The notes under the pieces: model-generated
Database searches by the model: none
The model's input: only the letters and a program-made list of their open reading frames with translations
What the model was told of the DNA's origin: nothing
NCBI GenBank assembly: GCA_030144725.1
Contig: JASKMD010000022.1
Location: forward strand, 1,186,996-1,250,995
Length of the DNA: 64,000 nt
Direction of reading: 5' to 3'
From: Haematococcus lacustris
Lineage: Eukaryota > Chlorophyta > Chlorophyceae > Chlamydomonadales > Haematococcaceae
Translations under genes and position numbers: made by a program
Part shown: piece by piece, positions 22,400 to 62,811 of the stretch
Layout of the letters: every line of letters starts with the position of its first letter
Position numbering within the stretch: position 1 is the first letter of the stretch

Positions 22400-22455
22400 C
22401 CCCCAAGAGGTCGTTGCTGGAGCTGCTGGCAGCTGCGGTGCTTGGCAGGGCCTGA
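22400..22455 (+). pseudogene. Orphan terminal exon of the sequon-repeat family
   Basis: After TTTACAG the exon reads (A)PKRSLLELLAAAVLGRA and TGA, the same 56-bp terminal exon as G1-G7. Similarity also extends into the intron upstream (about 21439-21490). No signal or sequon exons are found upstream, so this is either a dispersed exon or the tail of a lost gene. Confidence 0.7.
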
Positions 22456-22558
22456 TGCTAGAGCTGGCTAGTCTTGAGTTCTGCTCTGGTGGGGTTGCAG
22501 CAAAATGCTAACGCAGCTGAGAAAGGTGGGGGCAGCTGAGGGGATGACGGATGCTTCC

Positions 22559-23038
22559 CAGGCTTGTGAATCTTCAGATTTTCAGATTTTCAATTTTCAG
22601 ATTTTCAATGAAATGAAATGAAATTCATTGAAAAACTGAAAGAGTTTCATCGTCAGTGAAATTGAGCGGATGCCGCTATTTCTCAGCCTATCCTTTTAGA
22701 CGCGGCTTGTTTGTAGGCCTGCACTGGTTGAAATGCAGAAACACGTAGTTTGCCAAAGGTCAGACATGCAAGCCATTCTTAAAGATGCAAGCCGTCCATG
22801 CTGTCCGTGGATCCGCCATCTGTGGCGTTTTCTGGCTTGCGCTTCTTCCGCTGTGGCTGTAGCGCGCTGGCGCTAGCCAAGCCAATCGCAGCACAGCCAA
22901 TCACTCTGCACGACCCGATCTGCGATCTGACCGGGGGCAGCACCCGGCACTTTCAGATGTGCAGTGAAAACGTTCAGATTTTCAGATGAAAATTTTCATT
23001 GAAAATCTGAATGAAAATCTGAAATTTTCACAAGCCTG
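22559..23038. mobile_element. hAT-type MITE, 480 bp
   Basis: Terminal inverted repeats begin CAGGCTTGTGAA and continue with TTCAGATTTTCA-like units. An exact 8-bp direct repeat (ATGCTTCC) flanks it at 22551-22558 and 23039-23046. An 8-bp duplication plus a CA(G)-starting TIR is the hAT pattern. No coding capacity. Confidence 0.85.
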
Positions 23039-23895
23039 ATGCTTCCATGCTTGCATGCTATGGCCATTTGCTGCGACTCAGTGATCCACCCCAGGATGGT
23101 TAAAGTACAGCCTTCGGCTCCTTGCTAAATCTTTACCTGACAGGCTGTCTATGCAAGAATAGGGAGCTGGACGTTCATGGTACTGGTGACATGTAAAGCC
23201 CGGCTGCGGGAGTTGGAAAAAAAACATGTAGTATTGCATGGTACATGCTTGGTATGCCGGCTGCGGGATTTGAACCAGGCCCACCTGTTCTAGTTCCGTC
23301 AGCCAAGCGATGCAAAGCAATGAGCGTGTCTTCGGCTGGCCAGCATGTCTTCGGCTGGCCAGCATGGCGGAGGTTGTAATAGGCCACGCAGGGTAGCCGG
23401 GCATTGATCGGTGTGTGTGCCTCTTCTACTCCTGGGTCTCCTGAATGTCTCCTGAATGTGAACGGCGAGTTACACTGACTGCCGGTTTTAACTGCCGGTT
23501 TATATCCTAGGAAAATTGCGTTGTGCGTGTACACTTCAACATTTTCATTGACGAGCTATGGGACCCAGGCAAAGCTGTCATAAATACAATGGCGCACGAG
23601 GCGCAGTCGGAAGGGATGTGTGTGACCGGGACTTAACTGGGGGTGACCGGTTGTGTGTGTGTCTCTTCTACTCCTGTGACTACCCAAACTTTGGGGCATT
23701 GGCCACGCTGCATGTGGATGGTTGTGGGGCAATGAAGCGACTCAATAGCTCCCGTAATCGTCAAAGGGGTGCTCACATTTACCGCCGGTCAAAGTGGGCA
23801 TCACACTTCGGTCATCAACAAAAAGGCCAGTCAGACCAGCCGCACTCAAGTACCCTCGGCAGTCGGTGGCCGAACGCACGCCCCTGTACGGCACG

Positions 23896-26800
23896 ATGGC
23901 TAACCCCTGCACTACAATCGCCGCGCTTTGCCTGCTCGCATTCGTATTGGCGACTAGCCTGCCGGCGGCCTGCGCCAATGTTGGTGAGCGCGGGCTAGCT
24001 GCACACGCCGCACAGCTCACAGCATCAAGCCTGCGCTGATGCAGCCAAAGGGACAGCGACCCTAGAGCAGCTCACGCACCACGCACGATCGCCACGCGCT
24101 CACCACGCCGCCGCACTGATGCTGCGATGCGCTGCTGCTGCTGCTGCTGCTGTTCTTCCAGATAAGCTTATGCCGCAGCCACCCTGCTCTGCAACCCCGC
24201 TGGCCATCCGCTGCCATAAGTCACAGCTGCCCTCCCATACCTGTCACCTTGGCAGCAGCGAGCCTGACTGCCCCCACCCCTTGCTGTCCTGTGCAGACGC
24301 CCGGCGCCATGTGCTGGCCACCAGGACTTTGATGCAAGGGTATGCCTCGCTGACCAACTTGACCAAGGCAGTCAACACGCCCACGCCAGCCAACGTGACC
24401 AGGGCTGTCGACATGACCATGGGAGGCAACATGACCAGGATGAACAGCATCATGAGGACAGGTGTGTGCGTCATGTTCAGCCTGACCACCTAAAACACCA
24501 GCTGCACCTCGTGACCCTGACGCCTGTGATGAATGCAAGGGCAAGGGACATGAACACCAGCGGTAGCCTTCGCCTGACAAGCGTAGTCTAGAGCCCTTAT
24601 ATGGGAGCATTCTGGCACTGATGCCTGCACACCTGCTGCTTCCTCTTGCTGCCATGTGCAGGGGCTGGGCGGCACCTGCTGGCCACCAGGACGTTGATGC
24701 AAGGGTATGCCTCACTGACTAACCTGACCAAGGCAGGCAACATGACCAGGAAAGGTGTGTGGGTCACGTTCAGCCTGACGACCGGCTAAAACACCAGCTG
24801 CACCTGACGACCCTGACGCCTGTGATGCATGATGGCAAGGGACATGAACACCAGCGGTGGGCATAGCATAGTCAGCGCAGTTCAGACCCCATGCATGAGG
24901 GCCTCCTGGCACTGCTGCCTTCACCTGCTTCCTCTTGCTGTCGTGTGCAGACGCTGGGAGAAACCTGCTGGCTACCAGGACCTTGATGCAAGGGTATGCC
25001 TCGCTGACCAACCTGACCAAGACAGGCAGCACGCCCACACCAGTCAACAAGACCATGGGAGGCAACATGACCAGGATGAGCAGCATCATGAGGACAGGTG
25101 TGTGCCTCATGTTCAGCCTGACCACCAGCTGAACCACCAGGTGCATCGGATGACCCTGACGCCTGTGAATGCATGGGCAAGGGGCATGAACACCAGCGGT
25201 TGCCTTGGCCTTACAAGCGTAGTCTAGACTCCTTATGTGTGAGGGCCTTCTGAAACTGCTGCCTTCACACCTGCTTCCTCTTGCTGCCAAGTGCAGGGCC
25301 TGGGCGACACCTGCTGGCCACCAGGACTTTGATGCAAGGGTATGCCTCGCTGACTAACCTGACCAAGGCAGGCAACATGACCAGGAAAGGTGTGTGGGTC
25401 ATGTTCAGCTTGACGACCGGCTAAAACACGAGCTGCACCTGACGACCCTGACGCCTGTGATGCATGATGGCAAGGGGCATGCACGCCAGTGGTGAGCATA
25501 GCATAGTCAGCGCAGTTCAGACCCCATGCAGGGGGGCCTCCTGGCACTGCTGCCTTCACCTGCTTCCTCTTGCTGTCGTGCGCAGACGCTGGGCGGAACC
25601 TGCTGGCCACCAGGACTTTGATGCAAGGGTATGCATCGCTGACCAACCTGACCAAGGCAGGCAACACGCCCACGCCAGCCAACGTGACCAGGGCTGTCGA
25701 CATGACCATGGGAGGCAACATGACCAGGATGAGCAGCATCATGAGGACAGGTGTGTACCTTATGTTCAGCCTGACCACCTAAACCACCAGCTGCACCTCA
25801 TGACCCTGACGCCTGTGATGAATGCAAGGGCAAGGGACATGAACACCAGCAGTAGCCTTTGCCTGACTAGCGTAGTCTAGAACCCTTGTGTGAGGGCCTT
25901 CTGGCACTGCTGCCTTCCCACACTGCTGCTCCCTCTTGCTGTCCTGTGCAGGGGCTGGGCGACACCTGCTGGCCACTAGGACTTTGATGCAAGGGTATGC
26001 CTCGCTGACCAACCTGACCAAGACAGGCAGCACGCCCACACCAGTCAACAAGACCATGGGAGGCAACATGACAAGGATGAGCAGCATCATGAGGACAGGT
26101 GTGTGCCTCATGTGCAGCCTGACCACCAGCTGAACCACCAGATGCAGCGGATGACCCTGACGCCTGTGAATGCATGGGCAAGGGGCATGAACACCAGCGG
26201 TTGCCTTGGCATCACAAGCGTAGTCTAGACCACTTATGTGTGAGGGCCTTCTGAAATTACTGCCTTCACACCTGCTTCCTCTTGCTGCCAAGTGCAGGGC
26301 CTGGGCGACACCTGCTGGCTACCAGGACTTTGATGCAAGGGTATGCCTCGCTGACCAACCTGACCAAGGCAGGCAACATGACCAAGACCGGGAACATGAC
26401 CAGGAAAGGTGTGTGGGTCATGTTCAGCTTGACGACCGGCTAAAACACGAGCTGCACCTGACGACCCTGACGCCTGTGATGCATGATGGCAAGGGGCATG
26501 CACGCCAGTGGTGAGCATAGCATAGTCAGCGCAGTTCAGACCCCATGCAGGGGGGCCTCCTGGCACTGCTGCCTTCACCTGCTTCCTCTTGCTGTCGTGC
26601 GCAGACGCTGGGCGGAACCTGCTGGCTACCAGGACTTTGATGCAAGGGTATGCCTCGCTGACCAACTTGACCAAGGCAGGCAACATGACCAAGGCAGGCA
26701 ACATGACGAGGACAGGTGTGTTCTGCAGGTCGTGAGGGTGCTGTGTGTTTAAAGTCAAACAGTGCCTGGAATGAGAATGCTCTGCATGCCGTTGTTGTAT

Positions 26801-26912
26801 GCTGGTATCCTGATCCTGCCAGTGCTGCCCCAACCTGCCTGCCTGCTTGTTCGCAGCCCCAAAGAGGTCGCTGCTGGAGCTGTTGGCAGCTGCGGTGGTT
26901 GGGAGAGCTTGA
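23896..26912 (+). CDS. G1: secreted sequon-repeat protein, 10 exons with eight tandem modules
   Basis: Exons: 23896-23983, 24297-24461, 24662-24754, 24951-25097, 25297-25389, 25586-25750, 25952-26098, 26298-26408, 26605-26715, 26857-26912; all introns phase 1, no stop, 391 residues. Exon 1 is a signal peptide (MANPCTTIAALCLLAFVLA, cleavage probably after ACA). Eight modules follow, each starting [DG].[GR]R..LATRTLMQGYASL and continuing TNLTK, with about 22 N-x-T sequons in total, so the mature protein should be heavily N-glycosylated in the secretory route. The last exon ends APKRSLLELLAAAVVGRA. The exon 2 equivalent (DKNGT in paralogues) survives only as a stub near 24162; because that intron is open and in frame, a retained form 45 residues longer is possible. 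Family not recognised. Confidence 0.75.
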
Positions 26913-28026
26913 TGCTTGGAGCTGGCTATCTATGGTAGTACTCTAGTTGAAGGGTGCTGCAACAGGGGTAATGCAGGCGGAATAAATGGCACCAGCTGAA
27001 TGGCTGAAAGCTGCCAAGGGTTGAGCGGCCAGATTGGGATGGTACATCTTTGTGGCATGGCTGTCAGTGGGCAATAGGCGGCGATACAGCACGGAGCGGG
27101 GGGGCAGCTTGCCCACACTTGCAAACCATTGTTTCAGTGGGCGATTGTCACTGGCCGTGGTGCAAGGAGTTGTCATCAAATGTTGCAAGGAGTTGTTATA
27201 GGGGTTTGACACCGCATTACTGCAACACATACCATATAGGGTCCGTGTCGTATCTTGCTCCATGCCACACCAACTATGCGGTAACCTGTGTTTTTTAACT
27301 ACGTCTGACGGCTTGCTTCGTGGCTGGTGATGATAGGTTGTGCACTGTAACCTTGTTGTTTAACCTGCGTCTCACCTCCGTAACATAGTCCCTGGCTTCG
27401 TGTTCCGAGTAGTCATAAGTCAGGCGTGCAAGTCGAAGACGGATCAGACAATAACGCTCACGACATTACCAGCACTATATCGCCACCCTGTCGCAATCCT
27501 GCGACAACACTGTAGCTCATGGCAAAAGAGCGATTCGCTCGATAGAGGTCGCGTGATGTGCTCACCAATGGATGGTGCAGCAGCAGGTAGGCAGTGGCAA
27601 TTGAGTGATCTGTTGTCGCGCTTTTTGGCGCTTTGGTTCTGCCAACCATGTACTTTCGAACTATATCCACCCTGTAAACCGAACAATTGCAGATTGCTTG
27701 AGTAAGTCAGCGAGCCATGCCATGTGCCTATGGTCATAACTTCGTACTCCTAGTGAGGGGACCTGATCCTCCCTTTGCATTGTTCTAGGCCACTGCTGGT
27801 GACAGAGTAGCCATTTGATAGTGACAGAGTAGGCGCCCCAGAGCCTACAACTTCACAGCTCACCCGCTCATGTTTACATGTTTTTTTCATCGCAAAGCTG
27901 TACAGCAGGCACCGACTAAAGGAGCATGTGAAGTCGAGGGTGTGTGATTCACACTGTGATAGGGGAGCCTTGCACACTGTGATAGGGGAGCCTTGCAGTG
28001 CATGAGGGTGGTGTCAGCTTTGTATG
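26913..28026. other. Intergenic stretch
   Basis: No supported gene. The segment 27832-27883 repeats 20245-20296, and a 23-bp tandem pair (CACTGTGATAGGGGAGCCTT) lies at about 27952-27998. Confidence 0.5.
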
Positions 28027-28458
28027 CTACTCAGGCACCACACAGGAGTACCAGCAGCATAGTACGGTGTTTGCCTTGGCTTCTGGTTGCCAGCGCTGTG
28101 GCAGAGGCTCGGTCAACCGGACGGAAATGGTCTGCCTGCTGATGAGCGCCCTGATGTATTCGCTCTTGGTCAGCAGGGCTAACTGCAGGGGAGCACACAG
28201 CATGGTCAATGATCCCAGCGTCTCACAATGGTATTGTGTTGAGTTGCTCAGGAGCCTACCACATGTAGAAGTGCTAGTTGTGCCCCATGCAAAAGGGCGG
28301 GTAAGTAGATTGTCCCCGACAAGTCAAAAGGCCGTCGCATCGGTCTGTAGTTGCACGCGATACACGGCGATGCGTTCCCTGCAAAGGTCCTCCCAGCTGA
28401 TCGGTGCATTGGAGCGATGTAGCTTAGCGCTGTCCAGTAGCACGGCCGCAAATGACAT
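28027..28458 (-). CDS. Possible small two-exon gene divergent from the aminotransferase
   Basis: The first exon would start at ATG 28458 (MSFAAVLLDSAKLHRSNAP, then ISWEDLCRERIAVYR). The second, 28182-28027, follows CTCCCCTGCAG and reads LALLTKSEYIRALISRQ to VVPE and stop, phase 0. The donor between them is uncertain (GTGCAA or GTGTAT). Start codons of this and the aminotransferase would be only 110 bp apart, so a shared promoter region is possible. Family not recognised; a transposon remnant is an alternative. Confidence 0.3.
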
Positions 28459-28568
28459 TAGCCAGGTATGGATCGTTCAATTTGACTGGATGAGTTTACC
28501 AGCCTCACGTACGTTGAACGCTGCGCTCCGATGCACACTACGACGGACCTGCTGTAGCGCAGGCATCG

Positions 28569-30816
28569 ATGTCCACATCAGCGCCAGCGCAATCCACCGC
28601 AGCTCCTTTCTCTTACACCCCTCCGGGCAGGAACCATCTCTTCGTGCCAGGTACGGCACAATGACGCCCCGTCGTGCTGTGCGTGTGTGTGAGACCAACA
28701 AGGGTTAACCCTGCACCCTCCCGGCCACGAAACCAGGTCCGGTCAACATCCACGAGCGCGTGTTGCGGGCCATGAACGTGCCCGGCCAGAACCACCGTGA
28801 CCCATGGTTCGCTGATTTCTATAAGAGCGTCCTGGAAGACACTAAGTTCCTCTACCAGGTCGGCCGCAGCGACCTTGCCGATATGCTGCCAGGCTTGTGA
28901 TGGCTGTGTCCGTGCGGGCCTGGTTGTTTTTGCAGACCAAAGAGGCTACCCCCTTCATCTTCCCCGGCACCGGGACTGGCGGATGGGAGGCAGCGCTGAC
29001 CAACACGCTGTCGCCTGGCGACAAGGTGGTGTGCTTCCGCTACGGTGTGTTTTCACACCTGTGGATCGACATGATGACACGGCTTGGACTGGATGTGCAC
29101 GTGGTAGAGCGGCCCTGGGGCGAGGGCGCAGACGAGGGCGCGCTGGAGGAGATCCTCCGCGCTGATACAGAAAAGAAGATCAAGGCGGTGGCGGTGGTAC
29201 ACAACGAAACGACTACCGGCGTGACGTCCGACATTGCGGGCTGCCGGGCTGTTATGGACGCGGCGAACCATCCGGCGCTTCTCTTGGTCGACGGTGTGTC
29301 GTCTATTGGCGCGCTGAACTTTCAGATGGACGAGTGGCGCGTGGATGTGGCAGTGACAGGCAGCCAGAAGGCTTTGTCTCTCCCTACCGGCCTGGCATTT
29401 GTTGCAGCATCCAAGAAGGTGGGATGGCAAGCATGTTGCAAGGGTGTGTGTGCTGGGTGGCCATTCTGGCAACTCCTATTTGCACCTATGGGCTGGTGGC
29501 TAATTAGTCGCCCCAACTATGGGAGTGGGTTTGCAGCCCGTTAAGCAGTGTCGACAGGTCATTGTGGTGCATGCCACTCTCATTCTTCACGCCAGCAAGA
29601 TAGGATGCCTGCAATGTCGGTGCCGTACAGGCACTGGAGGCCATGAAGGACGCTAAGCTGAAGCGCTGCTACTACGACTTTGCTGACTATCTGCGCACCA
29701 ATCCCAAGGGCATGGTGCCGTACACCCCTGCACTTGCCCTCCTGCATGGCACCCAGTGAGTACCTACCCCCATGTGTCCCATTACACACCTTTTTAGCTC
29801 CGTTCACGCATGGCTGCACGGTCACATGGCCGCATGGCTACATGGCCAGATTGTGTGCATGAAATGGGGCAGTGGCAGGAGAGGAGGGGTGGCACACTGG
29901 CTGAAAAGTGAATTTCCTGGCTGGGTGGTGGCAGCGGCAGCTATGGCGGCCTTGGTGATGGTGGCAGCAGCAACAGCAGAAGCCGAGGCGACAGCAATTG
30001 GAGGGCGGCAGCAGCTGTTGCAGCGGCAGCAGCAGCAGCAGTGACCGCAGTGTCGGTGTGCTGTGGTTGTATGGCAGGGTGAGCCTGCCCCAGGCAATCC
30101 CATGTGTTAAGACAGGCGACAGGGCATGGGTAAACAAGCTTGTTGGCAAAGGCCGTGACATACTTACCAGCATCACAACATGCCTGCCAGCCAGCTGGGG
30201 TAGTACCTACCCATCTGACACTGCCAAGTGAAACCCACCCTGCCCTCTACTCTACTCCACCTGCCCCTATCATTGAAACATCTCATACCATTGATGAATA
30301 CCGCAGTGATGCGCCTTGTTGGTGGTTTCACCTAATCAACTCGTCACCAAATTGTATCACCAGTTGTTTTAGCATGAGATTGGGGTTTTCACCAAATCAG
30401 CGTATCATCAACAAGGCATATCACTACGGTATTCATTTGTTGGCAATAGCTTGGAACCCATGTCATGTGCCAACCAAGCAAGGCCAGAAAGGGAAACAGC
30501 AGGCCATGCCCCATGCAGGAGCTTCTCCCTCCATGCCATGCCAATGATAGCTGGAGTGATCTCACCCCTTCATCTGTATTGTGCCACCCAGAATGGCTGC
30601 ACCACTGGCTGCTTACAGGGAGTCCATAGCGCTGCTCAGGGCGGAGGGGTTCCAGAACGTAGTGGCCCGGCATCATCGCCTGGCTGAGGGTGCCAGGGCG
30701 GCAGTGGCAGGCTGGGGTCTTCAGGTACTCACAGCAGGGGCAATCCAGCAGCAGCAGCAATAGAATCAGCAGCAGCAGCAAGGAATCAGCAGCAGCAGCA
30801 GCAGCAGCAGCAAGAT

Positions 30817-30858
<42 letters not shown>

Positions 30859-30921
30859 CAAAGTGAGCAGCAGCAGCAGTAGCAAGATGAGCAGGAGCAG
30901 CAGCAGCAGCAGCAGCAAAGT

Positions 30922-30954
<33 letters not shown>

Positions 30955-32215
30955 GATGAGCAGGAGCAGCAGCAGCAGCAGCAGCAGCCTAGTCAGTGCC
31001 ACAAGCAATAGAGGCAGCAGTAGGTCGCCATGTCTCAATGTACAGCCGCTCACAGGGGCAGGGGGCAGAAACAGTATTGAGCACTGGTAGCAGCAGAAAC
31101 AGCTTCAGCAGTGGCTTCAATGTCCACCACAGCTTGGACACCCATTAGGGCTCATATTGCCGTCAGTGTGTGTCAATAAGGTGACTGCTGCTCCTGCTGC
31201 TGCTCCACCTGCTCCTGCTCCTCCTGCTCCTGCCGTCACCACTGGCGACTTGTCTCAGACTTTGTGCAAGAACCCTAGATGGAAGAGTGACTCACTGACA
31301 GTGGTGGAGACGCCACCAGGGATTGACAGCAACAAGGTGAGAGCCTGGGGTTGGAGCTAGTATGCCTGATCAGGCAGTGATGGTAGAGGTGCAGAAGGTC
31401 TCGAGATGCTTGCCCTCATCACGTGCCCCTTCCAACAGATGTGGCTCAGCGTGTGGCTATCTTGCTGTCCCTGCATCTGATGCCAATCAAATTGGCTCTG
31501 ACTTCCTTGTGAGTGTGCAGATTGTGAATGCGGCTTATGCCAAGTACGACCTGTCCATCGGCATTGGCCTGGCGCACATCAATGGCAAAGTCTTCCGCAT
31601 TGGTGGGTGCTGTGGGTGGCTTGGTTAGGCCTTGTGCATGCTGGCAGCAACCGATAGCATTGCTGGCTGTGCGGTGCGCCTGCTCTGCCACTATTGGGAG
31701 CTCTTTTCACCATCTGCAAACTACCACCCTCATGCCCCTGTCCTTCACCACTGCCCCTGCCCCTCACTGCTAGATCCCAGGCTGCTGACTACTGGCTCCT
31801 TGGCTGTGGGCTGTTGGCCCCTTCACTGCAGCCTGTGGACTGTGGCTTGTAGGCTGAAGGTTCCTTCACTGTAGGCTGTAGGTTCCTTCACTGTGGGCTG
31901 TGGTCTCCTTCACTGTCTCCTTCACTGTGGGCTGTGGGCTGTAGGCTGTGGTCTCCTTCACTGTCTCCTTCGCTGTGGGTTGTGGCCTCCTTTGTTGCTG
32001 GCTGGCCATCATGGTCTCAGGGGTGTGTTGTGTGCCCCGCAGGTCACCTGGGCAACATGAACGAGGTGATGCTGCTGGGGGCTTTGTGTGGAGTTGAAAT
32101 GGCCATGCGTGACGCTGGCATCGACATCACACCTGGTTCTGGAGTGGGTAAGGCTGTGGCCTACTTCCACCAGACATCAAAGGTTATCCCCACACGGGAG
32201 AGCTTGCTGGCATGA
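28569..32215 (+). CDS. AGT1: Serine/alanine-glyoxylate aminotransferase (complete, 8 exons)
   Basis: PLP-dependent class V aminotransferase of photorespiration, converting glyoxylate to glycine with serine or alanine as donor. Exons 28569-28650, 28737-28858, 28936-29418, 29631-29755, 30592-30724, 31259-31336, 31521-31602 and 32043-32215 join in phase to 425 residues (plant enzymes about 400). Signatures: GRNHLFVPGPVNIHERVLRA, TPFIFPGTGTGGWEAALTNT, HNETTTGVTSDI, LLLVDGVSSIGALNFQMDEW, VAVTGSQKALSLPTG with the PLP lysine near residue 213, and FRIGHLGNMNEVMLLG. An upstream in-frame TGA (28515) and no other ATG fix the start. The C-terminus is PTRESLLA, not a peroxisomal SRI/SKL-type signal. Introns carry a MITE, an AGC array and a minisatellite. 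The Arabidopsis name is used by homology. Confidence 0.95.
30301..30429. mobile_element. TA-target MITE, 129 bp, in aminotransferase intron
   Basis: Same family as the 510-bp element at 8528: ends CCGCAGTGATGCGCCTTGTTG and its near-complement, the same internal CACCAAAT motifs, TA on each side (30299-30300, 30430-30431). It lies inside intron 29756-30591 and is a deeply deleted copy. Confidence 0.8.
30765..31012. repeat. Interrupted AGC array
   Basis: About 250 bp of AGC units with AAG, ATG and GTG interruptions in aminotransferase intron 30725-31258. Confidence 0.93.
31790..31995. repeat. Minisatellite in aminotransferase intron
   Basis: Irregular repeats of TCCTTCACTGTGGGCTGTGG and shortened versions, inside intron 31603-32042. 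Confidence 0.85.
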
Positions 32216-32428
32216 TCCAGGCATGCAATGAAGACCAGCGTGCCCTGGCCTGATGCGCGCGCGTGCTGGTCAAGCCTTGACCTTGACCCACCCCACCCCA
32301 CCCCACCCCGCCCTGAGCAACCCAGTGGAGCTGCCACACCTCACCCCCTGGTGTTTTTACCACCAGCACCAGGTAGCCTGATGCCCATTCTCTGGTGCGG
32401 CCGCCATGCCCAGCTGTCTTGCCCTCAC

Positions 32429-32955
32429 CATCAGCTCCATGGCAGCGGTGGCAGTGGCACTCAGCAGAACCTCCACCAGCTCTGCGTCATGCCCACGCGC
32501 CAGTGCTGTCAGAAGCTGAGCAGGAGCACCTGAGGAGCTGGCATGCAGTTGTGTTTTAGGCCTGCTGGTTGGGTGGGGTGGTTCATTGAACACAGCAAAC
32601 CTAGCTAGGGGGTGAACCTTACCACATGAACAGCACTTGGCCAAGCTGGCCTGTGCAAGCCAGGCCAGCAATTGACAAGAGGACAGGCGCCTGCTGGCCT
32701 GGCTCACAGCTGCTGGCCTCCATGTCTCCTGCTCCCAAATGCTAGCGGCACAGCCCCACCTTGGCTGAACGAAGGCACGCCATGGGACGGTGCATACGAG
32801 GTGGAGTGAAAACCAAGGAAGGGGGGTACCCCTGGGCTTTGCCCCTGGGTCGCCCCATGCCCCTGCTGAGTACCCATGTTGGCAGGCTGTGTTGATGGAG
32901 AGCTGGGCTGTGATTGTGCTGGGCTGGGCATGGCCTGTTGAGCCACATGCTGCAA
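32429..32955 (-). CDS. Possible exons of a Gln/Pro-rich gene convergent with the aminotransferase
   Basis: An exon 32529-32429 (after CTCCTCAG) reads APAQLLTALARGHDAELVEV through ATAAMELM to a GTGAGG donor. Upstream, around 32780-32950, an open segment reads MPSPAQSQPSSPSTQPANMG and GATQGQSPGVPPF. Helix-like and Q/P-rich composition suggests coding, but phase between the two is not established and the family is not recognised. Confidence 0.3.
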
Positions 32956-50651: not shown

Positions 50652-50689
50652 CTTGTTGCGCAAGTGTGTGCGAGTTTAACGACTGCCGA

Positions 50690-52414: not shown

Positions 52415-54450
52415 TCAGTGCTCGCCGACCACCACAGCTGCCAACAGCTCCAGCAGCGACCTCTTGGGGGCTGTGAACAGGCAAGCGGGCGGGCAGGCTG
52501 GCTGGGTAGCACTGCCAAGAGCAGGATAACGGCATACAACACAAGGCAGGCAGGCAGGCAGGCGCATGGACGCATCCACATATCCAACCATACCAACCAT
52601 ACCATCTATGTGGGGTCAAAACCACCTCCTCACCATGACAGCTAACCGCATACCCGACCGCACACCCAACCGCACAAACAACCTTTCTAGACACTTAACA
52701 CAGGCCACAAGCAGACTAATCACAATTCTAGCTCACCTGCTTTTGGCGATGGTGTGGTCGTGCTGTTGCTGGTGGCATTCTTGCCGTTGGGCGGGGGTGG
52801 GCTGGTGATGTTGCTGCTGGCCTTGGCCGGAGGTGGGCTGGTGGGGTTGCGGGCGAGCGACAACAGCAGGCTGCGCTTGGGTGCTGCAAAGGTCATGAAA
52901 ATGGGCACAAAAGTAGGTTGGTAAGTTGCTATATGTCATTGCCAAGCTGCTGGGCACTTCTGCATGATGCCCTCACAATTCTAGCTCACCTGCTTTTGGC
53001 GATGGTGAGTGGTTACATTCCATGCCCATCACAGACAACAGCTCAGGGTTCACTAATAGATGGCAGGGACAAACCCCTCCTCCCCTCCTGCCCACCTCCA
53101 GTTACTGGTTTGGTCATGTTGGCTGGCTTGGTCATGTTCCACGTGGAGAGATCCTTTATCGGCATGGTCCTGTTGACCGGCCTGGGCAGGACTTGAGCTG
53201 AGAAGTTCCTGGAAGTTCGTTGCATCAAAGCCCTGGTGGCCAGCAGGTGTCGCCCAGCGTCTGCACGGGACAGCAAGGGGTGGCGGCAGTCAGGCACACT
53301 GATGCTAAGGCTGACAGGTATGGGAGGGCAGCTGTGCCAGCAAGCCGGGTGGCCTACAAGGCATGCACGGCAGAGCTGGCCATTGCACCTAGCTCATTCA
53401 CAGCGTCTGCACAGGACAGCAACATGAAGGTTTACACCGTCATAACCTATAGCCTGGTACGGCTACTTGATGCCTCAGCAAGGTGGGCCATCAGGTGTGG
53501 GGGGCGCGCAAGAACTCTAAAGGGTGAGGGGCCTGCAGCACATGAGTTGCACAGCTGGCCTTTGCATGTAGCTCACTCACCTGACTTGACAACAGGCTTG
53601 GTGGTGTTGCTGCTCTTGGTACCGCTCATGGTCTTGTTGCCGCTCATGGTCTTCTTGCCGCTCCACATGGGACTCATGCCTGCTTATGCAGTCAACACCC
53701 ATCAATCAGCCTCATGCATCATCTGTCGTGTGTTATGTTCAGGAGTCCAGGAGCTGCGGCATCCAGCAACAAGGCCTGACTCAACGTTGGATGGGCAGGT
53801 CGGCACGCTGGTGTCATTGTGACACTGGCTGCTCGCAGCAGGTGATGGTGGCAAGCGTTGCACATGGCAGGACGGATGCTGGCAGGGCGACTTGAAAAGA
53901 GGGTGAACGCAGCACGAGCAGGCAGCGCAGCACTTGGGGTAAGGGCGTGCGTTTACCTTTGGAGCTGGTGGCGTTCTTTGGCATCATAGTCACGTTGGTG
54001 GCCAGCAGGTGTCGCCCAGTCCCTGCACATGCGTTGAAAGGAAGCAGCGTGTGAGGGAAGGCAGCTGTGCCAGGAGGCTGCACACAAGGGGTCCAAGCGG
54101 CGCTGGCTATGTTATGCCAATTGCTGGTGTGCATGCCCCTTGCCATCATGCACAGGAGGCCCTAGCGAGGGACAAGGGGGCTGGTGGCGTTCTAATCAAG
54201 CAAAGCACAGATTTTGCATCAGCCCGTCACATGCAGCAGGGCCAGGGCGATAGCAGTTGCGCGGCGACTGCGCTGCGGTGCGCTAGGTTCACTGTCGTCT
54301 AGACCGGGTCGCCACCTTCATCAAGGATAGCTGTGCGGCGTGTACAGCTGGACCACGCTCACCATCCTCGGCGCAGGCCGCAGGCAGGCTAGTTGCCAAC
54401 ACGAACGCGAGCAGGCAGAGCGCTGCAACGGCAGTGCGGGTAGTGGACAT
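52415..54450 (-). CDS. G6: secreted sequon-repeat protein, 6 exons
   Basis: Exons: 54450-54363, 54022-53957, 53679-53581, 53260-53096, 52883-52737, 52470-52415; phase 1 throughout; 206 residues. Signal peptide MSTTRTAVAALCLLAFVLA; a fused exon GTGRHLLATNVTMMPKNATS; NKTMS block ending SSNTTKPVVKS; DAGRHLLATRALMQ with NFSAQ, NRT and NMT; an exon unique to G6/G7 beginning APKRSLLLSLARNPTSPPP and carrying NIT, NAT and NST in a Pro/Ser/Thr-rich mucin-like stretch; terminal APKRSLLELLAAVVVGEH. The unique exon starts with the same APKRSLL as the terminal exon, so it may be a duplicated and extended copy of it. Confidence 0.78.
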
Positions 54451-55360: not shown

Positions 55361-55615
55361 TGTTGTGGGGAACAGGCCTAGGCCACCCGCAGCCGTCTCT
55401 GACCTAAGTGTGAGACGGTGTGAGACGGTGTACTTAAGCTGTGCCTTGGGCATGCGATGGTGGGCATTGACGTGCCCCCTTCGCAGGTATGGTGGTCGCT
55501 CTTGCAATGGCACATAGGGCATCCGACGTGGCAGCCGTAGTGCACCGCTATGCATTTGTACTTGTTCTTAGATCGTGGACTCTTTTGTAATGGGCATTGA
55601 CGTGCCCCCTTCGCA
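55361..55615 (+). repeat. 5' LTR of copia element
   Basis: 255 bp. Within it a 25-bp string (TGGGCATTGACGTGCCCCCT plus TCGCA) occurs twice, about 55462-55486 and 55591-55615, the second forming the LTR end. Confidence 0.95.
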
Positions 55616-55716
55616 GGTTATGGGCCCACGTCACTTCCGTGTGCAATCCCGACATCGAAAAGTGCAGTCCGTTTAAATCAGTAGCGCTGAGGCGTGCTTC
55701 CGGTGAGCCCGTTCCA

Positions 55717-58700
55717 ATGATGGCGGTGGCTGTGCGGGAGAAGCTAGGCCAGCCCGGGGTTCAGTTCGAAAATTGGGAGTTTGAGATGAAAGCGCTGCTG
55801 AGGCAGCACGGGCTCGGGGCAGTAGTCAAAGCGCCTGTGGGGTTGGAGGGAAATAGTCGGCTAGGGTCGGTCTCAGCTGCGGCTGCGTCACCCGCGCGAC
55901 CGGTCGGGGTTGCGACCCCGGCCATTTCGCCAGCTGCAGCCGTGGCTGCTGCTGCGACTGCTGCTGTGGCAGCATCCCTAACACCTGAGCAAGACGAGAA
56001 AGCCCATGCCATCATCTGCAGCTCTGTTGACCCAAACAAGTACAGGGCTTTGTGCAACAGGCACGAGTCAGCCAGGGCTCTGTGGCAAGCCTTGCATAGC
56101 ATGCACACCCAGCAGGTGCATGCCAGCCGTCAGCAGCTCATCATTAAGGCTGGCAGGCAAAGCATGCAGTCAGGTCAGTCAGTGCAAGAGTACTGGGCTG
56201 AGGCCCAGGACCTGCACGAGCGCATCAACTCGACCGGCGCTTACTCCGACACACTCTGTCAAGCCCTGCTGGGCCTGCCACCTGATTACCAGCAGCTTGT
56301 GCAATCCATCCTTGAGCAGCCCCTTGATGAGCAGCTCACCTTTGAGCAGATCCTCCCTAGGCTGCTCCTAAGGGAGCAGCTGCTGCAGAATAGCCAGCCT
56401 CATGCGGTCGCTCTAGCAGCTCGGTCGGCTGGGGGCAGGGGTAGGCAGGGCAGCAGGGGGCAAGGGGATGGTAGCCAGGGGCGGGGCAGGGGTCAGGCCA
56501 GGGGCGGGCGTGGGTTTCAGGGGGAGTGCTGGCAGTGCCACCAGAGGGGGCACCAAGCGCACCAGTGCCCGAACCGCCCTGTCAGCCCCGTGCCTCGTTC
56601 GCCTTCGCCATCATGGCGTGGGGCTCCCTCGTCCCGTTCCAGCGGGGCTGGCAGGCCTCTCACCCCGGGTCCTGGGGGGGGCACTGCATCTGGTTGGGGT
56701 AGCTCGGCTCGTGGGCGTGACTCAAGCTCTCCCAGCCGGCACCCTGACAGCATGTCACGCAGCAGCATTGCATACTCCGTTGTCTCCAAGCCCCTGCTCT
56801 CTGGGGAGTGGGTGATAGACTCGGGGTGCTCGCGGCACCTCACGCCACACCGCGAGCTGCTGCACGACTACCAGCCTCTGCATGAGCCGCACCACATCAT
56901 TGTGGCCAACGGCGGCAGGATTGAGGCGCAGGGGCAGGGGGTGGTGTGCTTTGAGGGGGCTGGGGGGTCCATGCAGCTGCTGGACGTCCTGCATGTTCCC
57001 GAAGCGGACGGCAGCCTTGTCTCAGTGGGGAAGGCCACCAGGGCGGGGGGGAGTGTACACTTCACTCCGTTTGGCTGCTCCATCAACATGCCCGGGGCTA
57101 AGCACAGCATCAGGGGCACTCAGGTAGAGCAAGACCTGTTCCTGCTCGACAGCAAGCCGGTGCCTGTCGCCGGCGGCTTCAGCCTTGCAGCCCGCACCTG
57201 CAGTGACCCTTTGGTCCTGCACCACCGCCTGGGGCACCCGGGGTATCGCCAGTTGGCTCGGCTGTTGCGGGAGGGCATGGTGCGGGGCACCTCAGTCACC
57301 GCCGCTCAGTGTGAGGCGGCAGCCAGTGAGCTGTGCGAGCCCTGTGTCATGGGCAAGCAGACCAGCCTGGAGGCAAGGCAGCATGCAGGGCTGGGGGTCA
57401 CCGCTACGCGCCCGCTGATGCTGGTGCACAGCGATGTCTGTGACGTCACCGGTCAGTACTCAGCAGCCACGCCTGATGTCATGCGCTACTTTGTCAGTCT
57501 ACTTGACGAGTTCAGCGGGCTGGTGGCTGTCGTGCTCATTAAGCACAAGTCAGACGCGCCGGCAGCCCTCCGTGACATGGTCACGCTCTTGCAGCGTCGG
57601 CTGGGGCACAAGGTTGTGTACCTGCGCACAGACCGGGGGGGGGAGTACATCGGGGCTGAGACACAGCAGTGGTTGCGCAGCGAAGGCATCACGCACCAAC
57701 AGACAGCCCCCCGCACCCCCACCATGAATGGCAGCGCAGAGCGTGTCAACCGCACAATCATGGAGTGCGTCCGTGCTATGATGCTGGCCTCTGGGGTGCC
57801 AGCCTACTTTTGGGGTTTTGGCGTGATGGCAGCAGCGCACGTGCACAACCTGCGCCCAGTGGCAGGCAAGCCCTGCACACCCCATGAGGCCTGCTTTGGC
57901 AGCCCCCCCGACATACATCACTTGCGCGTTTGGGGCTGCCCAGCTTGGGTGCACGACAGCGAGCCGAGCAGCAAGCTGGCCAGCCGGGGCATCAAGGGGG
58001 TCTTTGTGGGCTATGAGGAGGGGGGCAAGGCTTATCAAGTGTGGGCAGAGGGCCGGCTCTATGTGAGCAAAAGCGTGGTCTTTGACGAGCAAGCAGTCCT
58101 GCGCCGCTTCGCTCCCGTGTCGTACGCGCCTGCTCCCAGCGACCTGGTTGCCCCGCCCAGTGCCGTGGCGCCCAGGGGGGGGAATAGTGCAGCTGGGGAG
58201 CAGCCTGGGAAGCAGGGTGGGATGGAGCAGGGTAGGATGGGCAGTGGGGGAGGGACCCCTGCTGTCACCCCCACCGTCACCCCCGCCCGACACAGCGCAA
58301 ACCGTGGCGGGGGAAGCAGCGATAGCAACAGCGGCGGTGGGGGACAAGCGGGCAGTAGGGGTGGACCCCCTGCTGCTCCAGATAGTTCAGGTGGGGATGG
58401 TGTAGGGGCAGGCTGGGCTAGCCTAGGCGGGGCTGGCGGTTTGGGCAGTTCAGGGGGGATGGAGACTGGCACCCCCGACACCGTGCCCGCGTTGCGCCCC
58501 GCCCTTGTGCCACCCGAGCGGCGCCGTTTTGAGCGCGTGCGCAAGCGCGTGGAATTCCCCGACTTCGTCACTTTGTGCTACTCCGCTCGATACGAAAGCA
58601 ACAGCAGCAGTGGCAGTGAGCGGGAGGGTGATGGGAGCAGGGGGAGCAGGGGAAGCTCTGGGGGTGCTGCTAGCCAGCCTGCTGAGCCTCGCTCCTTCAG

Positions 58701-60234
58701 CGAGGCCATGTCCCGGCCCGATGCTGAGGAGTGGGGCCGTGCCATGGATGCCGAGATGGCCAGCCAGCACGCCAATCAGACTTGGGTGCTGGTCAGCAGG
58801 CAGCCTGGCATGTCGGTCCTGCCAGGCCGCTGGGTCCTAAAAGTCAAGTGGGGCTCAGACGGCAGCATTGTCAAGTACAAGGCTCGCTGGGTGGTGAAGG
58901 GGTTTAGGCAGCGGGATGGGGTGGACTACTTTGAGGACGCTGTCTTTGCCCCCGTGGTCATGCACACGACCCAGCGCCTTATCTTTGCCCTGGCAGTGCA
59001 GAAGGGCTGGGGCCTCTGGCAGATTGACTTCAAAACGGCCTTCCTTAACAGCAAGCTCACAGACTCAGACCCGCAGATCTTTGTTGAGCAGCCGGAGGGG
59101 TATGAGGTGGGCAGGGGGCTGGTGTGCCAGCTGCAGCGCACAGTGTATGGCCTAAAGCAGGCCCCCCGGGCCTGGTACATGTGCCTGCGCGAGCAGCTGG
59201 AGCAGATGGGGTTCCGGGCTTCAGCAGCAGACCCCAGCCTGTTCAGCCTGCGCACAAGCAGCGGGAGCGCGGTGCACATGCTCGTCTATGTCGACGATTG
59301 CATCCTTGCCAGCGCAGACGAGGCAGCGGTGCAGGAGGTTAAGCAGCAACTGCAGCAAGCCTTTGACGTGCACGACCTCGGGCAGGCAGCTGACTTTCTG
59401 GGGATGCGCATTGCCTTTGACCGCGCAGCCGGCATCTTGCGCCTAACGCAGCAGCAGTACATCGAGCAGCTGCTGCAGCGCTTTGGTCTGGCAGAGTGCA
59501 ACCCCCGCCAGCTGCCACTCTCCCCTGGCACGCAGCTGGTGAAGGAGGGTGAGCAGCTCAGCGAGCAGCACACACTGCGCTACCGCGAGCTGGTGGGCGG
59601 CCTGCTGTGGCTGTCCACCTGCACGCGCCCCGACATTGCATTCGCAGTGGGGCAGCTTACGCGCTACATGCAGGCGCCCACGCGGGAGCATGAGCAGGCA
59701 GCGCAGGGGGTTCTGCGGTATCTCAGGGGCACAGCGGGGCAAGGGTTGGTCTTCAGGGGCAGCTGCAGCGGGGAGCTGGTGGGGTTCTGCGACAGCGACT
59801 ACGCCAGCTGCAAGCAGTCTCGGCGCAGCACCACAGGCTATGTCTTCATCCTGTCCGGTGCCACTGTGTCGGTGCGCAGCAAGCTGCAAACCACCGTGGC
59901 CACCTCCACCACCGAGGCCGAGTACCAGGCCGCTGCTGACGCCACCAGGGAAGCGTTGTTCTTGCGCAAGCTGCTGCATGAGCTGTGTGCAGTCACTGGC
60001 CCAGTCCCCATCCTGTGCGACAGCCAGGGTGCAGTAGCCCTGGTGAAGAACCCAGTGGAGTCGCAGCGCAGCAAGCACATCTCCGTCATGCACCACATGG
60101 CGCGTGAGCGTGTGTGGCGTGGCGAGGTGGAGTTCTCTTACTGCCCCACGGCGGACATGGTGGCTGATGCGCTTACCAAGGCGCTGCCTGGCCCCAAGTT
60201 CGTGTCGTGCAAGGCTGGCATGGGCGTGGGCTAA
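55717..60234 (+). CDS. Copia Gag-Pol polyprotein (1505 residues, intact)
   Basis: Start chosen at the first ATG (MMAVAVREKLGQPG); the frame is open further upstream into the LTR without an ATG. Gag domain with a zinc knuckle CWQCHQRGHQAHQC (residues about 271-284); aspartic protease WVIDSGCSRHLTP (about 368); pre-integrase HHRLGHPG to CEPCVMGK; integrase with D (HSDVCD, about 573), D (RTDRGGEY, about 638) and E (NGSAERVN, about 675), a D-x35-E spacing; reverse transcriptase with KARWVVKGFRQRDGVDY, TVYGLKQAPRAW and the YVDD centre (about 1191); RNase H with CDSDYA (about 1359), TTEAEY and CDSQGA. The domain order PR-IN-RT-RH is copia. No stop or frameshift, so it may be active. Confidence 0.97.
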   Translation: MMAVAVREKLGQPGVQFENWEFEMKALLRQHGLGAVVKAPVGLEGNSRLGSVSAAAASPARPVGVATPAISPAAAVAAAATAAVAASLTPEQDEKAHAIICSSVDPNKYRALCNRHESARALWQALHSMHTQQVHASRQQLIIKAGRQSMQSGQSVQEYWAEAQDLHERINSTGAYSDTLCQALLGLPPDYQQLVQSILEQPLDEQLTFEQILPRLLLREQLLQNSQPHAVALAARSAGGRGRQGSRGQGDGSQGRGRGQARGGRGFQGECWQCHQRGHQAHQCPNRPVSPVPRSPSPSWRGAPSSRSSGAGRPLTPGPGGGTASGWGSSARGRDSSSPSRHPDSMSRSSIAYSVVSKPLLSGEWVIDSGCSRHLTPHRELLHDYQPLHEPHHIIVANGGRIEAQGQGVVCFEGAGGSMQLLDVLHVPEADGSLVSVGKATRAGGSVHFTPFGCSINMPGAKHSIRGTQVEQDLFLLDSKPVPVAGGFSLAARTCSDPLVLHHRLGHPGYRQLARLLREGMVRGTSVTAAQCEAAASELCEPCVMGKQTSLEARQHAGLGVTATRPLMLVHSDVCDVTGQYSAATPDVMRYFVSLLDEFSGLVAVVLIKHKSDAPAALRDMVTLLQRRLGHKVVYLRTDRGGEYIGAETQQWLRSEGITHQQTAPRTPTMNGSAERVNRTIMECVRAMMLASGVPAYFWGFGVMAAAHVHNLRPVAGKPCTPHEACFGSPPDIHHLRVWGCPAWVHDSEPSSKLASRGIKGVFVGYEEGGKAYQVWAEGRLYVSKSVVFDEQAVLRRFAPVSYAPAPSDLVAPPSAVAPRGGNSAAGEQPGKQGGMEQGRMGSGGGTPAVTPTVTPARHSANRGGGSSDSNSGGGGQAGSRGGPPAAPDSSGGDGVGAGWASLGGAGGLGSSGGMETGTPDTVPALRPALVPPERRRFERVRKRVEFPDFVTLCYSARYESNSSSGSEREGDGSRGSRGSSGGAASQPAEPRSFSEAMSRPDAEEWGRAMDAEMASQHANQTWVLVSRQPGMSVLPGRWVLKVKWGSDGSIVKYKARWVVKGFRQRDGVDYFEDAVFAPVVMHTTQRLIFALAVQKGWGLWQIDFKTAFLNSKLTDSDPQIFVEQPEGYEVGRGLVCQLQRTVYGLKQAPRAWYMCLREQLEQMGFRASAADPSLFSLRTSSGSAVHMLVYVDDCILASADEAAVQEVKQQLQQAFDVHDLGQAADFLGMRIAFDRAAGILRLTQQQYIEQLLQRFGLAECNPRQLPLSPGTQLVKEGEQLSEQHTLRYRELVGGLLWLSTCTRPDIAFAVGQLTRYMQAPTREHEQAAQGVLRYLRGTAGQGLVFRGSCSGELVGFCDSDYASCKQSRRSTTGYVFILSGATVSVRSKLQTTVATSTTEAEYQAAADATREALFLRKLLHELCAVTGPVPILCDSQGAVALVKNPVESQRSKHISVMHHMARERVWRGEVEFSYCPTADMVADALTKALPGPKFVSCKAGMGVG

Positions 60235-60450
60235 GCTAGTTTGAGCTCTGTGCTTTGACCGTGTGGAGTCTGTTCGGTGCTTTCTTGCTTGTGCCTGTCT
60301 TGGCACGTGCCTGCCTGCGTCTGTCTGTCTGCACGCATGAGCTACATGTACACTATGTTTTTCGTTGTCTCCATGCATCTGTACTTGTGCATTTTCTGTT
60401 GACGCTTGGCGCTTTAGCTTCCTGCTTTGTTGGCCTGGCCTGAGGGGGAG

Positions 60451-60705
60451 TGTTGTGGGGAACAGGCCTAGGCCACCCGCAGCCGTCTCTGACCTAAGTG
60501 TGAGACGGTGTGAGACGGTGTACTTAAGCTGTGCCTTGGGCATGCGATGGTGGGCATTGACGTGCCCCCTTCGCAGGTATGGTGGTCGCTCTTGCAATGG
60601 CACATAGGGCATCCGACGTGGCAGCCGTAGTGCACCGCTATGCATTTGTACTTGTTCTTAGATCGTGGACTCTTTTGTAATGGGCATTGACGTGCCCCCT
60701 TCGCA
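60451..60705 (+). repeat. 3' LTR of copia element
   Basis: 255 bp, no difference from the 5' LTR seen by eye. Supplies the end of the element 27 bp before the G7 stop codon (on the minus strand). Confidence 0.95.
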
Positions 60706-60732
60706 CACTCTAGGTCAGTTCAGCTCCAAGCG

Positions 60733-62811
60733 TCAGTGCTCGCCGACCACCACAGCTGCCAACAGCTCCAGCAGCGACCTCTTGGGGGCTGTGAACAGGC
60801 AGGGCAGGCGGGCAGGCTGGCTGGGTAGCACTGCCAAGAGCAGGATAACGTCATACAACACAAGGCAGGCAGGCAGGCAGGCGGATGGACGCATCCACAC
60901 ATCCAACCATACCAACCATACCATCTATGTGGGGTCAAAACCACCTCCTCACCATGACAGCTAACCGCATACCCGACCGCACACCCAACCGCACAAACAA
61001 CCTTTCTAGACACTTAACACAGGCCACAAGCAGATTGATCACAATTCTAGCTCACCTGCTTTTGGCGATGGTGTGGTCGTGCTGTTGCTGGTGGCATTCT
61101 TGCCGTTGGGCGGGGTTGGGCTGGTGATGTTGCTGCTGGCCTTGGCCGGGGGTGGGCTGGTGGGGTTGCGGGCGAGCGACAACAGCAGGCTGCGCTTGGG
61201 TGCTGCGCAGGTCATGAAAATGGGCACAAAAGCAAGTTGGTAAGTTGTTATATGTCATTGCCAAGCTGCTGGGCACTGATGCATGATGCCCTCACAATTC
61301 TAGCTCACCTGCTCTTATCAGGGTGAGTGGTTACATTCCATGCCCATCACAGACAACAGCTCAGGGTTCACTAATAGATGGCAGGGACAGACCCCTCCTT
61401 CCCTCCTGCCCACCTCCAGTTACTGGTTTGGTCATGTTGGCTGGCTTGGTCATGTTCCATGTGGAGAGATTCTTTATCGGCATGGTCCTGTTGACCGGCC
61501 TGGGCAGGACTTGAGCTGAGAAGTTCCTGGAAGTTCGTTGCATCAAAGCCCTGGTGGCCAGCAGGTGTCGCCCAGCGTCTGCACAGGACAGCAAGGGGTG
61601 GCGGCAGTCAGGCACACTGCTGTTAAGGCTGACAGGTATGGGAGGGCAGCTGTGCCAGCAAGCCGGGTGGCCTACAAGGCATGCACGGCAGAGCTGGCCA
61701 TTGCACCTAGCTCATTCACAGCGTCTGCACAGGACAGCAACATGAAGGTTTACACCGTCATAACCTATAGCCTGGTACGGCTACTTGATGCCTCAGCAAG
61801 GTGGGCCATCAGGTGTGGGGAGCGCACAAGAACCCTAAAGGGTGAAGGGCCTGCAGCACATGAGTTGCACAGCTGGCCTTTGCATGTAGCTCACTCACCT
61901 GACTTGATGACAGGCTTGGTGGTGTTGCTGCTCTTGGTACCACTCATGGTGTTGTTGCCGCTCAAAGTTGGGCTCATGGTCTTGTTGCTGCTTCCCATTG
62001 GGCTCATGGTCTTCTTGCCGCTCCACATGGGACTCATGCCTGATCATGCAGTCAACACCCATTAATCAGCCTCATGCATCATCTGTTGTGTGTCATGTTT
62101 ATGAGTCCAGGAGCTGCGGCATCCAGCAACAAGGCCTGACTCAACGTTGGATGAGCAGGTCGGCATGCTGGTATCGTTGTGACACTGGCTGCTCGCAGCA
62201 GGTGATGGTGGCAAGCGTTGCACATGGCAGGACGGATGCTGGCAGGGCGACTTCAAAAGAGGGTGAACGCAACACGAGCAGGCAGCGCAGCAATTGGGGT
62301 AAGGGGCATGCAACTACCTTTGGAGCTGGTGGCGTTCTTTGGCATCATGGTCATGTTGGTGGCCAGCAGGTTTCGCCCAGTCCCTGCACATGCGTTGAAA
62401 GGAAGCAGCGGGTGAGGGAAGGCAGCTGTGCCAGGAGGCTGCACACAAGGGGTCCAAGCGGCGCTGGCTATGTTATGCCAACCGCTGGTGTGCATGCCCC
62501 TTGCCATCATGCACAGGAGGCCCTAGCGAGGGACAAGGGGGCTGGTGGCGTTCTAATCAAGCAAAGCACAGATTTTGCATCAGCCCGTCACATGCAGCAG
62601 GGCTAGGGCGATAGCAGCTGCGCAGCGCCTGCGCTGCGGTGCGCTAGGTTCACTGTCGTCTAGACCGGGTCGCCAACTTCGTCAAGGATAGCTGTGCGGC
62701 GTGTACAGCTGGACCACGCTTACCATCCTCGGCGCAGGCCGCAGGCAAGCTAGCCGCCAACACGAACGCGAGCAGGCAGAGCGCTGCAACGGCAGTACGG
62801 GTAGTGGACAT
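60733..62811 (-). CDS. G7: secreted sequon-repeat protein, 6 exons
   Basis: Exons: 62811-62724, 62383-62318, 62039-61899, 61578-61414, 61202-61056, 60788-60733; phase 1 throughout; 220 residues. Closest to G6, with the same fused second exon (GTGRNLLATNMTMMPKNATS), the same Pro-rich exon with NIT/NAT/NST and the same tail (AAVVVGEH). The NKTMS block is 42 bp longer than in G6 (adds SPMGSSNKTM and SPTLSGNNTM). Signal peptide MSTTRTAVAALCLLAFVLA. The copia element lies in its 3' flank and could supply or disturb the polyadenylation signal. Confidence 0.78.

Follow-up and report, generated by a model that had tools for sequence, protein, structure and literature searches.

A clustered Haematococcus gene family built from sequon-rich phase-1 exons, with predicted secreted products and in-frame exon turnover

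How do several neighbouring genes come to share short exons packed with N-glycosylation sequons, differ in the number of those exons, and all keep an open frame? This question is raised by a 64,000-nucleotide stretch of the unicellular green alga Haematococcus lacustris (contig JASKMD010000022.1, positions 1,186,996 to 1,250,995 of the forward strand, assembly GCA_030144725.1), hereafter called the window (G000:C110:1186996-1250995, its contig being referred to as C110); the genome searched comprised 307,914,905 bases in 597 contigs. An original prediction made from this DNA had claimed seven intact genes which share a signal-peptide exon, interchangeable sequon exons and a conserved terminal exon, joined throughout by GT-AG, phase-1 junctions. 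All seven, G1 to G7, were modelled to the exact base and lie complete within the window; 38 of 38 introns were GT-AG, 38 of 38 were in phase 1, and each coding sequence carried a single, terminal stop, with all seven frames open. Splicing in the cell would be expected to follow this structure, which was read from the DNA. On balance, we favour reading these genes as a family that is restricted to Haematococcus and clustered locally, that encodes secreted, N-glycosylated, cationic matrix or wall proteins, and that grows and shrinks by recombination of phase-1 exons.

The genes are assembled from a small set of modules. Exon S (88 bases) encodes the signal peptide; exon m spans 21-24 bases; exon K, 99-156 bases in the window, encodes N-K-T repeats with a KPV[VI]KS end. 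Exons R4 and R5 (93-165 bases) open with a head in which R-[HN]-[LV]-L stands at residue 4, followed by N-M-T repeats, and R5m (66 bases) is an R5 head fused to an m-like tail. Exon P, of 147 bases, encodes proline and sequons, and the 56-base exon T encodes a conserved 18-residue C-terminal end, which reads APKRSLLELLAAAVVGRA before the stop in G1, G2 and G4, with close variants in G3, G5, G6 and G7. By eye, the alignment also revealed similar sequence immediately upstream of the start codons of the seven window genes.

G1 (23896-26912, plus strand) has nine introns and encodes 391 residues with 22 N-X-S/T sequons; it consists of S (23896-23983), eight R4 sequon exons (24297-24461, 24662-24754, 24951-25097, 25297-25389, 25586-25750, 25952-26098, 26298-26408 and 26605-26715) and T (26857-26912). 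G2 (35950-37458, plus strand; S 35950-36037, m 36323-36346, K 36614-36739, R4 36863-36991, R5 37157-37252, T 37403-37458) and G3 (39159-40646, minus strand; S 40559-40646, m 40267-40290, K 39874-39999, R4 39622-39750, R5 39362-39457, T 39159-39214) each have five introns and encode 172 residues with 12 sequons. The same five-intron arrangement was found in G4 (46616-48072, plus strand; S 46616-46703, m 46964-46984, K 47232-47342, R4 47460-47624, R5 47790-47885, T 48017-48072; 178 residues, 14 sequons). G5 (49364-50651, minus strand; S 50564-50651, m 50297-50317, K 49834-49989, T 49364-49419; 138 residues, 9 sequons) has four introns and a single hybrid R exon (49632-49727), of which the first codon is R4-like and the body R5. 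In G6 (52415-54450, minus strand; S 54363-54450, R5m 53957-54022, K 53581-53679, R4 53096-53260, P 52737-52883, T 52415-52470; 206 residues, 11 sequons) and G7 (60733-62811, minus strand; S 62724-62811, R5m 62318-62383, K 61899-62039, R4 61414-61578, P 61056-61202, T 60733-60788; 220 residues, 13 sequons), five introns separate modules that include the fused R5m and exon P.

A second set of copies resides on contig C118, which is syntenic with the window and antiparallel to it: window 27978-33830 corresponds to C118 455191-449155 at 86-92% identity, 48929-51469 to 387392-384805 at 88.9%, and 16415-18623 to 507319-505295 at 73-82%. The C118 copy could be the second haplotype of a diploid or, alternatively, stem from an old segmental duplication; diploid traits are named in the title of PMC7617258. 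Counterparts of G1 to G6 were found there, G1b at 503226-500914, with open frames in G2b, G3b, G4b, G5b and G6b. A C118 array with six signal-exon matches at 314-338 kb, spaced ~4.8 kb apart, supplied models A1 and A2, and a further gene, D1, lies on C110, 26 kb past the window. Together with the window genes, these nine additions on C118 and C110 give 16 intact models with 8-22 sequons per protein, internal exons of 21-174 bases, and 81 of 81 introns GT-AG and in phase 1. The nine were found with phase-1 templates, so that their phase is partly given by construction, but their splice dinucleotides and absence of stops are not. Full matches only were considered in this modelling, and four m-type matches were discarded as chance after failing the splice check, three of them being off-strand. 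Two synteny gaps of ~45 kb and ~24 kb (C118 ~455-500 kb and 425-449 kb) fall inside the gene cluster, and matched the window over 400 bases or more in a single 510-base instance.

Repetitive DNA could give the appearance of such a family, in that the cluster might consist of minisatellite-rich repeats or pseudogenes devoid of protein function. Tandem repeats of 18 bp and of ~290-350 bp are present, the genome is highly repetitive (PMC7617258), and two isolated exons were found in the window: a relic S exon interrupted by an in-frame stop (33825-33893, plus strand; matching the S exon of G1 by tblastn at E 1.2e-5, and with one mismatch to the signal-exon pattern), and an orphan T exon (22400-22455, plus strand), 91% identical to the G3 T exon, which has its own AG acceptor and no other module detected beside it. 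The start originally given for the gene family falls on this orphan T exon, outside G1; the exon occurs on C118 as well (503976-504029). Against a repeat or pseudogene origin stand the 16 intact models and a constraint specific to the modelled frame. For 13 of the 21 pairs of window genes taken together (all but those with G1, G2-G7 and G3-G6), the ratio of nonsynonymous to synonymous change (pN/pS) was 0.43 in the modelled frame versus 1.02 and 1.43 when the frame was shifted. Because window pairs share sequences, three disjoint pairs (G2-G3, G6-G7 and G4-G5) were also taken; these gave a pN of 0.038 and a pS of 0.117 (p = 1.5e-7 by a Fisher test with counts rounded). Single-pair omega ranged from 0.17 to 0.65 across all 21 window pairs; among themselves, the eight R4 exons of G1 had a pN/pS of 0.34 in frame versus 1.23 and 1.95 out of frame. 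The copies on C118 behaved alike: five gene/copy pairs pooled to 0.43 versus 0.92 and 1.00 in the other frames, and G1 differed from G1b by 12 synonymous and 3 nonsynonymous changes over four matched exons (four of the eight in G1b). A dN/dS near 1, named beforehand among the outcomes that would speak against the family, was thus not seen; the pooled, disjoint-pair and copy-pair comparisons all indicated purifying selection. We conclude that the members are, almost certainly, functional coding genes, and the repeat or pseudogene explanation was rejected as having next to no probability.

Modules gained, lost and fused in frame, as had been predicted, were observed directly between gene copies. 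G1b has six R4 exons against eight in G1, and encodes 287 instead of 391 residues and 15 instead of 22 sequons; exon P is present in G6 and G7 and absent from G6b; and in A1 and A2 a 147-base exon is, by reading, R4 in front and R5 behind. Whole genes have been duplicated too, G2 and G3 in inverted orientation (~2.5 kb at 91.6%) and G6 and G7 (~2.6 kb at 92.3%). Duplication seems to have enlarged G1, the copied pieces being exon-plus-intron units of ~290-350 bases and also ~1-kb blocks. In G4, a mosaic tract at 47592-47911 (plus strand), covering the R4 end, intron 4 and R5, was 92-100% like G2/G3 per 80-base step, versus 46-71% by sliding identity in introns 1-2; compared intron by intron, introns 1 and 2 were 61-72% identical, introns 3 and 5 82-85% and intron 4 96-98%, with exon R5 at 100%. 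This pattern points to gene conversion or module exchange between paralogues. We infer that unequal recombination and gene conversion among the internal exons would lengthen and shorten the genes; since those exons are all in phase 1, sequon number changes without frameshift.

Whether the exon types themselves descend from shared DNA was addressed with 11 alignments set against approximate dinucleotide shuffles. None of 300 shuffles reached the score of R4-R5, m-R5 or m-R5m, and six of 300 reached that of P versus R4. Results for K versus R were mixed over three genes (0, 6 and 24 of 300), and T aligned with R5, P and R4 exons no better than shuffles in four of four tests. An 18-base exact match to part of exon P was noted inside intron 4 of G6 (52990-53007).

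The distribution of the modules bears on where they came from. The signal-exon pattern, allowing up to one mismatch, was found in at least 27 genome places: nine on C110 (the seven window genes, the relic and D1), 14 on C118, three on C10 and one on C409, with none in the reversed control. Sixteen of these 27 were modelled and one is the relic; six on C118, three on C10 and the one on C409 stand outside the modelling. The K-exon pattern occurred in at least 47 places on the same four contigs, its control again giving none. Genome matches on C166 and C475 looked like chance and were set aside, as 30 and 20 kb of surrounding sequence gave no module at E 1e-3. No relatives outside Haematococcus emerged from protein searches of ~5.8 billion sequences, which need shared 5-residue words and may miss distant relatives; they returned only three H. 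lacustris proteins, QJQ45_017072 (P0001), HaLaN_11643 (P0002) and QJQ45_017064 (P0003), all named hypothetical and all containing family modules. Viral and prokaryote collections, queried with the G4 R4 exon only, yielded 27 and 326 pattern matches, none encoding a relative. Within open-licence PMC text, none of the titles and abstract starts listed had this family as its subject.

Of the public models, P0001 and P0003 correspond, by reading, to C118 copies, with P0001 merging parts of G6b and G5b; in the NIES-144 model P0002, 36 of the 37 residues of the G4 K exon align and all are identical. On reading, the three models join family modules to repeat sequence, intron sequence or a neighbouring gene. 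The claim that the family was unrecognised is borne out by the three hypothetical names and by two models that carry parts of the modules in another frame (by reading); automatic annotation can misread such exons.

The original prediction had likened these genes to the exon-shuffled extracellular proteins of animals. In animal exon shuffling, folded modules move between unrelated genes, and the class 1-1 proteins so formed have symmetric phase-1 exons. That part of the likeness holds, in that all modules here are symmetric 1-1 exons behind a signal-peptide exon and are gained and lost in frame. The recruitment of modules from, or their sharing with, other extracellular genes is nevertheless very improbable: the S and K modules are confined to the four family contigs, the parts of the three Haematococcus proteins that matched are family modules, no Pfam family held up for the single modules tested or for whole proteins, and no folded domain was detected. 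The present genes also differ from the animal ones in varying through duplication close by, through fusion and through what appears to be gene conversion. One Pfam candidate, DUF6052 (PF19522), scored 33.9 bits for whole G1, above the cut-off of 25, yet no stretch passed singly; two single modules tested gave no match, and the match, its score being read as a sum over repeats, was rejected. Uniform phase 1 follows because duplication of an exon together with the introns beside it leaves the phase unchanged; the 38 junctions therefore amount to an estimated six or so module types (S, m, K, R, P and T) that were in phase 1 in the ancestor, and not to 38 independent events. Roughly a third of introns are expected in phase 1, and about six ancestral phase-1 types are, against that expectation, unusual but not remarkable alone.

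Symmetric exons could also serve regulated skipping and so yield isoforms with different glycan numbers, after the manner of the micro-exon secreted genes of schistosomes. Every internal exon could be skipped without frameshift, and the m exon has only 21-24 bases. In P0001, by reading, the G5b hybrid R exon runs on into an R5 behind the first T, skipping that T; G5b does have an extra R5 ~0.6 kb and an extra T ~0.9 kb behind its own T exon, and on the strength of this junction G5b may also be read through to the extra R5. P0001 may, however, be a prediction only. In a schistosome micro-exon gene, the coding sequence lies mostly in micro-exons of up to ~36 bases; here m alone is of that size, the other exons having 56-174 bases, and regulated skipping as the role of the symmetric exons seems unlikely. 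The Schistosoma genes resemble ours in being secreted and lineage-restricted, with short products and a shared signal sequence, the last feature being reported also for a Schistosoma japonicum family (PMC3434034); ours differ in having one micro-exon type, dense sequons and cationic products, and in belonging to another kingdom.

What, then, would the proteins be? All seven signal peptides have a hydrophobic core (mean Kyte-Doolittle (KD) hydropathy 2.8-3.2 over the best 11 residues) and Ala at -1; behind the core stands A-C-A in six of seven and T-F-A in G4, giving A-x-A or T-x-A at -3/-1. This assessment used simple hydropathy, not SignalP. No 19-residue window of the mature chains exceeded KD 0.8. 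On this predicted evidence, the products are very probably secreted. The mature parts average one sequon per 11-17 residues, 93 of the 107 mature Asn residues of G1 to G7 lying in sequons; shuffling the residues of each mature protein 2,000 times never gave more than 14, 8, 8, 9, 6, 8 and 10 sequons in G1 to G7 respectively, lower than observed in all seven, the sequons being not mutually independent, given the 18-bp repeat structure. Mature net charge is +11 to +42, there is no Cys, and Pro numbers 6-21 per protein. P0003 found nothing in PDB at E up to 1, and the one match of G4 to solved structures (E 0.66) was at chance level.

These properties suggest that the mature chains are unfolded, cationic glycoproteins covered in N-glycans. 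In the sequence of events that we favour, the proteins would leave the cell by means of the signal peptide encoded in exon S, many of their sites would then carry N-glycans, and the flexible, charged, glycan-covered chains would be built into the extracellular matrix or wall; charge and glycan number would matter more than exact sequence. A matrix or wall location, taken by itself, falls a little short of an even chance. In Haematococcus, the composition of the wall changes, cellulose predominating in flagellates and mannose in aplanospores, and the wall study concerned (PMC8618704) names N-glycan biosynthesis, with 9 genes, as one of its listed pathways; we take this as context, not as evidence for the G1 to G7 proteins. 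Volvocine pherophorins and hydroxyproline-rich proteins (PMC9818292) are likewise secreted algal glycoproteins encoded by gene families, and exon P is proline-rich; here, however, no pherophorin domain was matched at E up to 10 in G1, G4 and G7 (three of the seven proteins), N-sequons dominate over proline repeats, and Cys is lacking.

Several observations weigh against the reading of an intact family of glycan-bearing matrix or wall proteins. The Asn and Ser/Thr codons of the sequons had a pN of 0.112 versus 0.109 in ordinary mature codons, with a pN/pS of 1.09; because they change as fast as other mature codons, selection for particular sequon sites is unsupported. G2b, with its first two exons 9.6 kb apart, may not be a working gene, and P0002 and P0003 place part of the family exons in the other frame noted above. 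An AlphaFold model of the relative P0001, made without alignment, had a mean pLDDT of 40.5, which is compatible with disorder and weak as evidence. The matrix or wall location, finally, would be drawn from composition and a predicted signal peptide only.

Could the charge of the proteins instead point to an antimicrobial or defence role, as cationic peptides that have diversified against microbes? A net charge of this size and the module differences between gene copies would agree with such a role. Selection is on average purifying rather than diversifying, Cys is absent, and dense sequons are unusual for antimicrobial peptides; we regard this function as improbable.

The heads of the exons raised a stronger alternative. 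In the window, all 28 R, P and T exons carry R-x-[LV]-L from residue 4 onward, and it heads none of the 10 m and K exons; by reading, the nine additional models have the same head in every one of their 28 R and T exons. Over 155.7 nonsynonymous sites, the R, L and L codons of the head had no nonsynonymous change, versus a pN of 0.109 elsewhere (G1 not in the set). S1P, also known as SKI-1, has the consensus [R/K]-x-x-[L/S/T], of which RRLL is an example (PMC3252376); CLEL precursors are cut by plant S1P in the cis-Golgi (PMC7162652), and S1P orthologues, there termed SBT7, are reported throughout Archaeplastida (PMC6713707). The fit of the R-x-L-L heads to this published consensus suggests possible S1P-type processing. 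The products would then be secreted polyproteins in which each R, P and T exon starts with a site for an S1P/SKI-1-type Golgi subtilase and gives one peptide, namely N-glycosylated cationic peptides from R and P exons and a C-terminal peptide from T. The consensus is loose. Synonymous change in the same codons is low too (5 of 105.3 sites, 0.047 versus 0.279), and some of the conservation may therefore stem from codon bias, from a constraint on splicing or from gene conversion. Such a polyprotein is, in our estimation, a minority prospect; cleavage between modules would nonetheless be a serious alternative, or an addition at the same tentative level, to the favoured mechanism. More tentative by a shade is the fuller scheme of one glycopeptide per exon, in which each phase-1 exon would bring its own S1P-type site and N-glycan cluster and the copies on homologous contigs differ in unit number. 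Plant precursors processed by S1P/SBT6.1, such as CLEL6 (PMC7162652), share a signal peptide and R-x-x-L type sites with these proteins; the present sites are many and repeated, are accompanied by dense N-sequons, and their cleavage is predicted.

Under the favoured reading of secreted matrix or wall glycoproteins, the family may supply the extracellular matrix or wall of Haematococcus with a component that is species-restricted and has escaped annotation. In practice, the barrier to astaxanthin extraction is the cyst wall (PMC7617258, PMC8618704). Two syntenic copies of one locus in this unicellular green alga show, with good resolution, exons being gained, lost, fused and exchanged in frame, and the trait that varies is the number of N-glycan sites. 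The family is new and well defined, and its in-frame exon turnover is unusually clear; the mode of gene evolution is one already known.

Further features of the locus lie between and beside the genes. Very long, near-perfect microsatellites were found: (CGCCC)n over 2.6 kb at 41425-44070, with the window step 42001-44000 pure G+C, (GGGGGC)n over 0.8 kb at 51205-52040, and (GCCT)n over 0.9 kb at 21488-22392. The last abuts the orphan T exon, which stands directly behind it; in G2 and G4 the acceptor is preceded at this place by a short CCTGCCTGCCTG tract, and the array appears to be the pyrimidine tract of the last intron, expanded to giant size. The window gave no Rfam match at gathering scores and no tRNA. 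A dispersed repeat (3254-4193, 8019-8519 and 18067-18978; 78-92% identity) resembles, by eye, the N-terminal part of P0003, and the open reading frames over it had no Pfam match. A Copia-type retrotransposon with one long open reading frame occupies 55597-60234, between G6 and G7; on C118, stretches with 96% identity to it are located instead between G5b and G4b (~395400-403121). Between G1 and G2, an open reading frame at 28897-29544 matched class-V aminotransferases (E 3.5e-16).

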